The position numbers and the translations under genes were made by a program. DNA of 48,846 nt from Deltaproteobacteria bacterium. GTDB taxonomy: Bacteria; Desulfobacterota; Desulfomonilia; UBA1062. The notes below the pieces were generated by a model. That model made no database searches, was not told where the DNA came from, and worked only from the letters and a program-made list of their open reading frames with translations. The stretch is taken from positions 1 through 48,846 of the forward strand of contig JAKLDU010000005.1 of assembly GCA_022703355.1 (NCBI GenBank). The letters are read 5' to 3'. This document shows, one piece after another, positions 16,652-44,428 of the stretch. The first letter of the stretch is position 1. The number at the start of each line of letters is the position of its first letter.

Positions 16652-17371
16652 ATGCCCGAAGAGATCAAGGCAGGGTGTGCGCGGCCCACTGGCGGCCCGG
16701 TGGGGGAAGCCCCCGAAAGAACCGCTCCTGCAGGGACTGGACCGGTAAAGGAGGAAAAGGGCATGATCAAGGTTGGGGGCAAGGCCCCGGATTTTACGGC
16801 ACCGGCGTACCTGGGAGGCAAGTTCGTACAGGTGAAGCTCTCCGATTACCTCGGCAAATGGGTGGTGCTCTGCTTCTACCCCGGAGACTTCACCTTTGTC
16901 TGAGCGACCGAGATCTCGGCAGTTGCCGAGAAATATCCCGAGTATCGGAAGCTCGGGGTCGAGGTCTTTTCCATGAGCGTGGACAGCGTGTTTGTGCACA
17001 AGATGTGGAACGATCACGAGCTTACGAAGATGGTATCCGGCGGCGTGCCATTTGCCATGCTCTCTGACGGCGGCGGCCGGGTGGGGAGCGTGTACGGCGT
17101 GTACGACCAGGATGCGGGCGTGGAGATGCGCGGCCGCTTCATCATCGACCCGGACGGGGTCATCCAGGGCTATGAGGTGCTCACGCCCCCCGTGGGCAGG
17201 AACGTGGACGAAACTATCCGCCAGATCCAGGCCTTCCAGGTCGTGCGGAACAGCAAAGGAACCGAGGCCACGCCTTCGGGCTGGAAGCCGGGCAAGATGA
17301 CGCTCAAGCCCGGACCGGACCTCGTGGGCAAGGTGTGGGAGGTATGGAAGACTTCCATGGCCTTTGACTGA
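16652..17371 (+). CDS. prxU: Selenocysteine-containing peroxiredoxin (in-frame UGA at 16901-16903)
   Basis: A peroxiredoxin that reduces peroxides with a selenocysteine in place of the peroxidatic Cys. Upstream of the UGA the frame reads FYPGDFTFV; downstream it continues without a break as [17 protein letters not shown], exactly where other peroxiredoxins have FVCPTEI. Residue 84 is therefore Sec. Reading through gives 239 residues, a normal length, with the usual [13 protein letters not shown] and [13 protein letters not shown] segments. A SECIS-like hairpin follows the UGA. No Cys occurs after the Sec, so it is a one-selenol type. Two starts have good ribosome sites: 16652 (GGAGGAG) and 16763 (AAAGGAGG, giving [11 protein letters not shown], 202 residues). 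I give the longer form. Confidence 0.93.
16901..16931 (+). promoter_or_regulatory. UGA(Sec) codon and bacterial SECIS-like hairpin
   Basis: UGA is at 16901-16903. The hairpin is UCUCGGC (16914-16920), loop AGUU, GCCGAGA (16925-16931): seven perfect pairs, loop starting 18 nt after the UGA and a G at loop position 2. Bacterial SECIS elements have a short apical loop with an early G at this distance. Confidence 0.85.
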
Positions 17372-42104: not shown

Positions 42105-42428
42105 TTACATTCCGGGGACATAGACGCAGGATTCCGACCCGAACTCGTCATACTCGTGGCAGTCGCACTCGGGGATGAACACCCGCCCGTCCACCTTGTA
42201 GAAATAGCTGAACTCTCTGTTGCCCGGAACGCGCACGACCCACAGGCCCCTGCCTGCCCTCGAGGCGGGATGGGGCTCGTAGCCGTCCAGCGAAGAGGCG
42301 AACACCACCGACGATGCCCCGGGGGCCTTCAGATAAAGCTCGAGGCTGCTGCCCCCAAGGCGGTGATAGTGGTGCGCGCACCCGGTGAAGAGAGCTGCCG
42401 AAACCAGGGCCATGAAAAGCATCTTCAT
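42105..42428 (-). CDS. Small lipoprotein with CBM48-like (glycogen-binding-like) module
   Basis: A 107-residue protein. The signal KMLFMALVSAALFTGC ends in a lipobox-like LFTGC. The mature part looks like an early-set (AMPK-beta/isoamylase N-terminal) domain: LELYLKAPGASSVVFASSLD, LWVVRVPGNREFSYFYKVDG and a final DEFGSESCVYVPGM. The end mirrors the DDFGGENSILYPG end of the preceding anti-sigma-like protein, suggesting duplication. It is predicted to be anchored to a membrane facing the periplasm. ATG at 42428 overlaps the upstream stop as ATGA. Confidence 0.75.
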   Translation of the reverse strand: MKMLFMALVSAALFTGCAHHYHRLGGSSLELYLKAPGASSVVFASSLDGYEPHPASRAGRGLWVVRVPGNREFSYFYKVDGRVFIPECDCHEYDEFGSESCVYVPGM

Positions 42429-43006
42429 GCATCGATCCCGGGGTAGAGGATGGAGTTCTCTCCGCCGAAGTCGTCCATCTCGCCGGCCGGGATGGTGGGG
42501 TCGGCAACCCTGTGCGAGCCGTCGAGGATGTAGGTGAAGCTGTGCTCTCCGGGCGGGAGGGGAAGCGTCACCTCCCAATACCCCCCCGTGCCCCGCTTCT
42601 CCAGGGCGACCTTTCTCCAGCCGGTGAAGCTCCCGGTGATCTCGACCTGCCTGGCGTCCGGCACGCAGATGACGAAGCGGTGAAACGAGGCGCTGCCCGG
42701 CTGCGCCTGCTGCCCGTGCTGCCAGAAAAACATCGAGGACAGGACGATCACCGCCGTGGCGACCGCCACCGCCGCAGTGCGCAGAACCCGGGGGGCGAAG
42801 AAACGGGACGGGTTCGCGGGGACCGGCTGGACGAACGGCTTCGGGTCCGCCTGCCCGGTGCGCAGGAGCTGCTCCTGGCGCAGGAGGGACACGGTGTCTT
42901 CCTTGAAACCGGCGCTTCCATGAACCTTTTCGACGAAGTCGATCTTTTCTTCAAGATCGAGCTCGTCGTCGATGAACATGCTGATGAGAAAATCGTGCTC
43001 ATTCAT
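42425..43006 (-). CDS. Anti-sigma-like membrane protein with periplasmic CBM48-like domain
   Basis: A 193-residue protein. The N-terminal 60 residues (NEHDFLISMFIDDELDLEEK...) resemble the helical anti-sigma domain without zinc ligands. One membrane segment follows (about 73-96, AAVAVATAVIVLSSMFFW), then an isoamylase/AMPK-type glycogen-binding-like domain: QVEITGSFTGWRKVALEKRG, GYWEVTLPLPPGEHSFTYIL, DDFGGENSILYPG. The gene position after an ECF sigma factor with an 8-bp overlap supports an anti-sigma role. A polysaccharide-binding fold on the outer face could be the sensor. ATG at 43006 follows GGAGGGTGG; a GTG at 43015 is less well spaced. Confidence 0.8.
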   Translation of the reverse strand: MNEHDFLISMFIDDELDLEEKIDFVEKVHGSAGFKEDTVSLLRQEQLLRTGQADPKPFVQPVPANPSRFFAPRVLRTAAVAVATAVIVLSSMFFWQHGQQAQPGSASFHRFVICVPDARQVEITGSFTGWRKVALEKRGTGGYWEVTLPLPPGEHSFTYILDGSHRVADPTIPAGEMDDFGGENSILYPGIDA

Positions 43007-43478
43007 GGTTTCCACCCTCCAGGTACTCCTTCAGTTTGAGGCGGGCCCGGTGCACCTTCACCTTGACGTTCCCCGCGCTCATGGACATGATGCCGGCGAT
43101 CTCGCCGTACGAGAGACCGCCGCCTGCCACCATGGACAGGATGTCCCTCTCCTCGTCGCTCAAGGTCTGCAGGCCCCTGAGCACGTTCAGAAACCCGTCT
43201 TTCACGATGGCCGCATGCTCCTGGTCCGCCGCCGGGTCGGGATGATCGTCGTCGAGCCCGGCATACCTGCCGTTCCTGCGGACGTGGTCGATGAACGCGT
43301 TCCGCGCGACGGTGAACAGCAGCGAAGGGGACACCTCCCGGCCCTCATAGCGCTCCATGCACCGGGTCACACTTTCCTGCAGGATGTCATGCGCCGTGTC
43401 CTGATTCCCGGTCAGCCGCAGGAGATAAGCAAACAGCCTTCCCCCGTGCTCCTCGACTATGTGAGCGATAGTGTGCAT
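42999..43478 (-). CDS. ECF-type RNA polymerase sigma factor
   Basis: A 159-residue ECF sigma factor with only regions 2 and 4. Region 2 is RLFAYLLRLTGNQDTAHDIL-QESVTRC with LFTVARNAFIDHVRR; region 4 is LSDEERDILSMVAGGGLSYG-EIAGIMSMSAGNVKVKVHRA. It directs polymerase to its own promoters, probably including this operon: TGTAAC (43515-43510) and CGTT (43493-43490), 16 bp apart on the minus strand, look like an ECF promoter, but the start site would leave only about five leader bases, so I do not annotate it. The gene starts 48 bp after the small selenoprotein gene and may be co-transcribed with it. Confidence 0.93.
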   Translation of the reverse strand: MHTIAHIVEEHGGRLFAYLLRLTGNQDTAHDILQESVTRCMERYEGREVSPSLLFTVARNAFIDHVRRNGRYAGLDDDHPDPAADQEHAAIVKDGFLNVLRGLQTLSDEERDILSMVAGGGLSYGEIAGIMSMSAGNVKVKVHRARLKLKEYLEGGNHE

Positions 43479-43525: not shown

Positions 43526-43702
43526 TCAGCGCCGTTCCGCGGACATGCCCTCTTTGCCTGAGGCCTTTGGGGCCTTTTTCTTGCCGTCCTCGACCGGACA
43601 GCCCGGGCTCATTCAGGTCCTGACCCCGAATCTGGGCAGGAGCCAGGCTTGGACGAAATACCAGACGCCAATCATCGCGAGAAAGAACAGCAGGTCGTTC
43701 AT
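43526..43702 (-). CDS. Small membrane selenoprotein (predicted; in-frame UGA at 43613-43615)
   Basis: Read as a normal gene this is a 29-residue membrane peptide, MNDLLFFLAMIGVWYFVQAW then LLPRFGVRT, ending at TGA. If the UGA encodes Sec, the frame continues MSPGCPVEDGKKKAPKASGK and seven or eight more residues to TGA at 43526, giving 58 residues with Sec30 and Cys35 (U-x4-C) right after the membrane helix and a Lys-rich tail. A SECIS-like hairpin follows the UGA at the same position as in the peroxiredoxin gene of this window. GAGGAAAGC precedes the ATG at 43702. A CRP/FNR-type site lies upstream. Likely a single-pass membrane thiol/selenol redox protein; the function is unknown. Confidence 0.78.
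43583..43615 (-). promoter_or_regulatory. UGA(Sec) codon and SECIS-like hairpin
   Basis: On the minus strand, UGA (43615-43613) is followed after ten bases by GCUGUCC (43602-43596), loop GGUCGA (43595-43590), GGACGGC (43589-43583): seven pairs including one U-G. The loop begins 18 nt after the UGA and carries GGUC, as does the apical loop of the E. coli fdhF SECIS. Confidence 0.75.
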
Positions 43703-43771
43703 GAGCTTTCCTCCATGTCTCGCCCCTTTCCGTGGTTTCCCCGGAAGAGGCTCTCATCCCTTTAGAGAAGG

Positions 43772-44001: not shown

Positions 44002-44011
44002 CGGGTGGCCC

Positions 44012-44428
44012 ATGTCAGAGCTCGCGAGATTCGGGGTTTCACTGGAAAACCGGCTGCTGGAGAAGTACGACCGGCTCATCAGGAAGAAGGGCTACGCGAC
44101 ACGCTCCGAGGCGCTCAGGGACCTCATCCGCTCGGAGCTCGTGAAGAAGGAGTGGGAGGAGAACCAGGAAGTGGCGGGCGCGGTCACCTTCGTCTACGAC
44201 CACCACCACCGGGGCCTCGCCGGGCGCCTCACGGACATCCAGCACGACTGGCAGTCCCTCATCATCTCAACCCAGCACATCCACCTCGACCACCACAACT
44301 GCCTGGAGATCGTGGCCGTCAAAGGCCGGGCCCACGAGGTGGAGAAGCTCGCCCACGCCCTGCGCTCGGTGAAGGGCGTCCGTCACGGCACCCTGAGCAT
44401 GACCAGCACGGGCAAGGCCATAGACTGA
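44012..44428 (+). CDS. nikR: Nickel-responsive regulator NikR
   Basis: A 138-residue ribbon-helix-helix plus ACT-domain regulator. Residues 1-45 (ARFGVSLENRLLEKYDRLIR, RSEALRDLIRSELV) are the DNA-binding part. The nickel site is complete: H78 in DIQHDW, H89 and H91 in QHIHLDHHNC, and C97, corresponding to H76, H87, H89 and C95 of E. coli NikR. When nickel is bound it represses nickel-uptake genes. ATG at 44012 starts the conserved N-terminus; the frame is open upstream to 43955 without family similarity. It is followed by the NikMN-Q-O importer, its likely target. Confidence 0.95.
   Translation: MSELARFGVSLENRLLEKYDRLIRKKGYATRSEALRDLIRSELVKKEWEENQEVAGAVTFVYDHHHRGLAGRLTDIQHDWQSLIISTQHIHLDHHNCLEIVAVKGRAHEVEKLAHALRSVKGVRHGTLSMTSTGKAID

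Follow-up and report, generated by a model that had tools for sequence, protein, structure and literature searches.

A 58-codon gene on the minus strand of the 48,846-nucleotide stretch of DNA analysed here (the window), together with its homologues in more than ten bacterial phyla, almost certainly constitutes a selenoprotein family in which an in-frame UGA is decoded as selenocysteine (Sec), as judged from comparative sequence analysis. In the window, 29 codons precede this UGA and 28 follow it, and translation with TGA read as U gives MNDLLFFLAMIGVWYFVQAWLLPRFGVRT-U-MSPGCPVEDGKKKAPKASGKEGMSAERR. The initial annotation, which did not give the strand, had described a ribosome site, one membrane helix, the in-frame UGA, 28 further codons and a clean stop, and all of these are present when the gene is read from 43702 to 43526; the plus-strand reading of the same interval yields nothing sensible. 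The region of the gene has no credible match in Rfam, and none of the plasmid records matches the family.

Table 1 Features of the selenoprotein gene and its immediate surroundings in the window
Feature	Position	Strand	Evidence
Membrane selenoprotein gene, 58 residues	43526..43702	-	Translation with TGA as U; homologues with one TGA in the same column
Shine-Dalgarno sequence GGAGG, 7 nt before the ATG	43710..43714	-	Sequence
Start codon ATG	43702-43700	-	Sequence
Predicted single membrane helix, residues 3-24	43631..43696	-	AlphaFold2; charge bias of the family
In-frame UGA, read as Sec, residue 30	43613..43615	-	TGA conservation; Cys in five SelA-less genomes
SECIS hairpin, 7-bp stem	43583..43602	-	Fold; same-register hairpins in relatives; covariation in the sister class
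Conserved Cys35 (U-x4-C), presumed partner of Sec30	43598..43600	-	Family conservation at U+5/U+6
Terminal stop, also TGA	43528-43526	-	Sequence
ECF sigma factor, directly downstream	42999..43478	-	NCBIfam sigma70-ECF over cut-off

Our comparison set comprised 196 distinct family genes, with many counts made on 195 of them. The codon in the Sec column is TGA in 195 of the 196 and is never TAA or TAG, whereas the final stops of these genes are mixed (TAA 70, TGA 68, TAG 55); since an ordinary stop would be expected to vary as the final stops do, the internal TGA does not appear to be one. Downstream of the UGA, third codon positions take a 0.56 share of the changes, compared with 0.60 upstream, stops per codon are 0 in frame and 0.025-0.053 in the other frames, and both Cys and DR/VES motifs are conserved. 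A lack of downstream conservation, or relatives ending at this point with UAA or UAG, had been named at the outset as outcomes that would tell against a selenoprotein, and neither occurred. The homology check suggested at the same time, allowing U or Cys at position 30, retrieved homologues with UGA or, rarely, Cys at that site and with conserved residues after it.

In 162 of 195 genes a Met codon comes directly after the UGA, as would suit an arrangement in which the UGA is the ordinary stop of a 29-residue membrane peptide and the adjoining AUG starts a second peptide by coupled reinitiation (UGA-AUG). We reject this very improbable arrangement, because Met is not obligatory at this position (V, L, G, T, A, I or K is found there in 33 genes), the stop is never exchanged for TAA or TAG, and in five SelA-less genomes a Cys codon makes the halves one continuous frame; the covariation of the SECIS hairpin and the way in which the presence of the family tracks SelA, both described below, argue in the same direction. 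That the sequence after the UGA is conserved as the hairpin of an attenuator or other non-coding RNA element, and not as a translated frame, has next to no probability and is rejected on the codon-position pattern, for although the region does contain a conserved, covarying hairpin, third codon positions change most, as they do upstream, in-frame stops are missing, the Cys and DR/VES motifs are retained and the frame is fused to thioredoxin and to sulfide:quinone reductase (SQR).

The candidate SECIS element of the window gene, GCUGUCC-GGUCGA-GGACGGC, occupies nt 11-30 after the UGA, and folding recovers the 7-bp stem and the loop GGUCGA from nt 18 that had been reported for it (loop at 43595-43590, nt 18-23). 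A selenocysteine peroxiredoxin in the window (PGDFTFVU; U codon at 16901, plus strand), said by the initial annotation to share this spacing, has a SECIS-like hairpin directly after its U codon, and the loop of that hairpin does begin at nt 18 after the UGA. Folded alone, the hairpin of the small gene does not exceed dinucleotide shuffles in stability (z -0.9), and the argument for a SECIS is thus made from the family. Hairpins in the same register are found in relatives (L010, L118, L150, L180, L186, L190, L201 and L202), the mean MFE of the family is -12.7 as against -9.1 +/- 0.2 in synonymous-codon controls, and the loop opens with GG or GU in 139 of 194 genes, compared with about 31 in controls. 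The commonest hairpin class is a larger sister class of 45 genes with the loop at nt 24. Selected by predicted fold, this class covaries at 8/8 pairs, contains 109 compensatory cells versus 33 when shuffled, and is 91.4% paired versus 66.1% in shuffles and at most 42% when slid; in a set drawn up from the protein motif with no regard to the fold, pairing is 79%, compared with 60% after shuffling. These comparisons indicate that a SECIS hairpin 17-25 nt downstream of the UGA directs Sec decoding across the family.

The distribution of the Sec machinery can be set beside that of the family. SelA occurs in 52 of 56 Acidobacteriota genomes with the UGA form and in 108 of 191 others (57%; p=7e-8), in 18 of 20 UGA-form Planctomycetota genomes, and, within the window's phylum, in 166 of 174 family-positive genomes versus 189 of 221 others (p=8e-4), eight family-positive genomes of this phylum having no SelA match over cut-off. 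The expectation that C-x4-C forms may exist was borne out by five Cys forms encoded by TGC or TGT (L188, L245, L257/L269, L263/L270 and L268), and SelA is absent from all five of their genomes (Fisher p=1e-6). Three of these genomes have contigs of 4.8, 7.8 and 8.3 Mb, so that a gap is an unlikely cause of the missing SelA in them. Three other candidate Cys or no-stop forms (L111, L112 and L114) were set aside as very low-scoring, chance or unverified matches. For the genome of the window itself, absence of selA, selB and selD had been put forward as evidence against the selenoprotein; selB and tRNA-Sec are present, but a search for selA gave no match. Four sampled members of the genus have selA, and the simplest, probable explanation for its absence here is a gap in a MAG that is 80% complete, but two genomes of the same taxonomic family as the window genome (G014 and G016), which are 98-99% complete, likewise have no SelA match.

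A read-through search returned homologues in about half of 99 relatives, every significant one with one TGA in the same column, and most genomes of the same genus have a homologue carrying exactly one TGA there; single-TGA homologues in most of the genus and roughly half of the phylum place the window gene far beyond chance. When 395 genomes from the window's phylum were searched with a profile, 174 (44% of those sampled) proved to have homologues, and the weaker matches, checked by hand, also have TGA wherever the column is readable. The share is about 23% in the sampled Acidobacteriota and 9% in the sampled Planctomycetota, and besides these two groups, members come from Thermodesulfobacteriota/Deltaproteobacteria, Melainabacteria/Cyanobacteriota, Spirochaetota, Verrucomicrobiota, Armatimonadota, Zixibacteria, Calditrichota, Rokubacteria and other groups. 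Scanning of the GTDB collection with a DNA pattern allowing TGA, TGC or TGT, which provides a sample and not a census, gave 79 TGA and 1 TGC among the 80 matches listed.

Members of the family are about 45-70 residues long (median 53 over the 196 distinct genes), and in 176 of 195 Sec is residue 29 or 30. They share a membrane helix and the motif [WF][ILV]LP[RK]xG[VI]xT-U-[M]xxxC; the tail is variable, charged and disordered. The second Cys lies at U+5 (U-x4-C) in 147 of 195 genes and at U+6 (U-x5-C) in 18, while 24 have no Cys within 8 residues of U. Divergent subfamilies exist with changed Sec motifs, namely GIRG-U-GVGPSDRC (L105/L106/L107), LGLPS-U-GAP (L092/L096/L101/L102) and PV-U-G (L098/L104), some of whose members are without the usual Cys after U. 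Two single genomes each hold two copies with different tails (L090 and L116; L089 and L117).

AlphaFold2 predicts one helix (residues 3-24), with a pLDDT of about 90 over residues 1-20, and a disordered tail. Across the family, Lys/Arg and Asp/Glu number on average 0.19 and 0.87 in the first six residues, and 6.0 and 4.1 in the part after residue 20. The orientation of membrane proteins follows the positive-inside rule. From this charge bias and the rule we infer an N terminus outside and a C terminus inside, which would place Sec30 and Cys35 on the cytoplasmic surface of the membrane. The proposed selenol/thiol pair at the membrane surface, put forward in the initial annotation, would fit this arrangement.

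In the window, an ECF sigma gene begins 47 nt downstream of the selenoprotein gene, as had been pointed out earlier; the neighbours of relatives form no recurring ECF cluster, and we regard the association as incidental and reject a partnership with an ECF sigma or anti-sigma factor. By eye, the gene after the ECF sigma factor (42425-43015, minus strand) has the look of an anti-sigma or membrane protein with a glycogen-binding-like (CBM48-type) C-terminal domain. Divergent beside the selenoprotein gene lies a NikR-type nickel regulator (44005-44428, plus strand), which is found near the family in 11 loci, including the L158 group. No thiol or sulfane gene adjoins the selenoprotein gene in the window.

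In the wider family, the commonest recurrent neighbour is of thioredoxin type (15 of 203 adjacent same-strand slots versus 2 of 459 distant ones, p=1e-6), in several phyla and on either side of the family gene. Furthermore, the selenoprotein frame runs stop-free into thioredoxin in L155 and L212 and into type III SQR in L164, all three being apparent natural fusions. Four loci (L226, L206, L209 and L173) have a CoA-disulfide reductase-rhodanese gene 5-75 nt upstream, and such a gene also stands next to the Cys form L245. Persulfide dioxygenase (PDO) is directly adjacent to the family gene in L171 and L126, as is type III SQR in L191. In L269 and L270 the Cys form sits in an operon between persulfide dioxygenase-rhodanese and SQR, with a TauE-like transporter ahead of the dioxygenase. 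Pooled, thiol and sulfane genes fill 27 of 203 adjacent slots versus 11 of 459 distant ones; tested one by one, the single sulfane gene classes are too few to reach significance. Neighbourhoods vary, such a gene being directly adjacent on the same strand in only 27 of 196 loci.

These thioredoxin, CoA-disulfide reductase-rhodanese, persulfide dioxygenase, rhodanese and type III SQR neighbours lead us to propose, tentatively and as a reading that we hold plausible but short of probable, that the family provides a membrane-anchored pair of selenol and thiol (U-x4-C) that faces the cytosol, is served by thioredoxin and acts in thiol and sulfane-sulfur redox chemistry. Sec30, as the reactive selenolate, would attack oxidised sulfur at the membrane, in a disulfide, a persulfide or a similar substrate, and would then form a selenenylsulfide with Cys35, which thioredoxin could re-reduce. 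It is conceivable, if somewhat doubtful, that the membrane-tethered selenol is a dedicated acceptor and relay of persulfide (sulfane sulfur) between membrane SQR and cytosolic rhodanese, thioredoxin or CoA-disulfide reductase.

Two other functions would leave the selenoprotein itself intact. We consider it unlikely that the family handles metals or metalloids, with Sec and Cys as membrane ligands, and has no part in sulfur redox, and keep this open since ArsR-type genes (12 of 203 adjacent slots versus 2 of 459 distant ones) and NikR, in the window and the loci mentioned above, recur. These contexts come mainly from Desulfobacterota relatives, whereas thioredoxin, rhodanese, PDO and SQR are neighbours in several phyla, and ArsR-type proteins also sense persulfides, which weighs against a metal role; other selenoproteins have been implicated in Hg/As handling (PMC13188914), which weighs for it. 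A thioredoxin-dependent peroxidase, or a repair protein for membrane lipids or membrane-protein thiols, would agree with a selenol beside a membrane helix and with the thioredoxin linkage and in-frame fusions, but we judge it rather improbable, given that the AlphaFold2 model of one helix and a disordered tail contains no peroxidase fold and that the persulfide-enzyme neighbours would be left unexplained. The thiol/sulfane-sulfur role can be compared with proteins already known. Related type III SQRs, which have a selenoprotein subtype (NF049943), stand beside or in frame with four members (L164, L191, L269 and L270), but a type III SQR is a flavoenzyme of about 400 residues and the window family has no enzyme domain. 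Thioredoxin (TIGR01068), likewise, recurs as adjacent gene and in-frame partner, while its fold is absent from the predicted structure of the selenoprotein itself.

Analogous in layout are SELENOK and SELENOS, eukaryotic single-pass membrane selenoproteins with Sec near the C terminus and the SECIS in the 3' UTR. In both, as here, Sec belongs to a charged, disordered cytosolic tail that comes after a single membrane helix; the positions of their Sec and SECIS differ from those in the window family, and no Pfam match to them was found among 50 members, so that we regard this as resemblance, not homology. The same 50 members have no credible match to any other Pfam or NCBIfam family, and a 2026 table of 119 prokaryotic selenoprotein families and subfamilies (PMC13188914) holds no counterpart, which together point to a new selenoprotein family, though it may be described elsewhere or stand unlabelled in databases. 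The catalogued families (PMC13188914) resemble it in UGA plus bacterial SECIS, in Cys homologues in Sec-free genomes and in a redox-type U...C pair; none has such a size, a single helix and an LPRxGVxT-U motif, and most are Trx-like with many Cys homologues, in contrast to the rare Cys forms found here. The deep-Sep paper describes hypothetical families DG, DW and DF, each with Cys-containing homologues in various organisms, and its authors note that filtering may remove Sec proteins that have no Cys homologues.

A 58-codon gene is discarded by annotation rules, and a protein enters selenoprotein catalogues either through its Cys homologues or by being long enough for gene calling; at about 50 residues and nearly always with Sec, the family escapes both routes. 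At 44%, about 23% and 9% of genomes in the window's phylum, Acidobacteriota and Planctomycetota, respectively, it would rank among the commoner bacterial selenoproteins, and it may account for the Sec machinery in some lineages. Cultured hosts include Desulfospira joergensenii DSM 10085, Desulfacinum hydrothermale DSM 13146, Pelovirga terrestris M08fum and Aquisphaera insulae JC669. Were the persulfide relay true, the family would be a nearly Sec-obligate redox module common to many phyla, and it connects selenium and the membrane with sulfane-sulfur chemistry in a way that can be tested.
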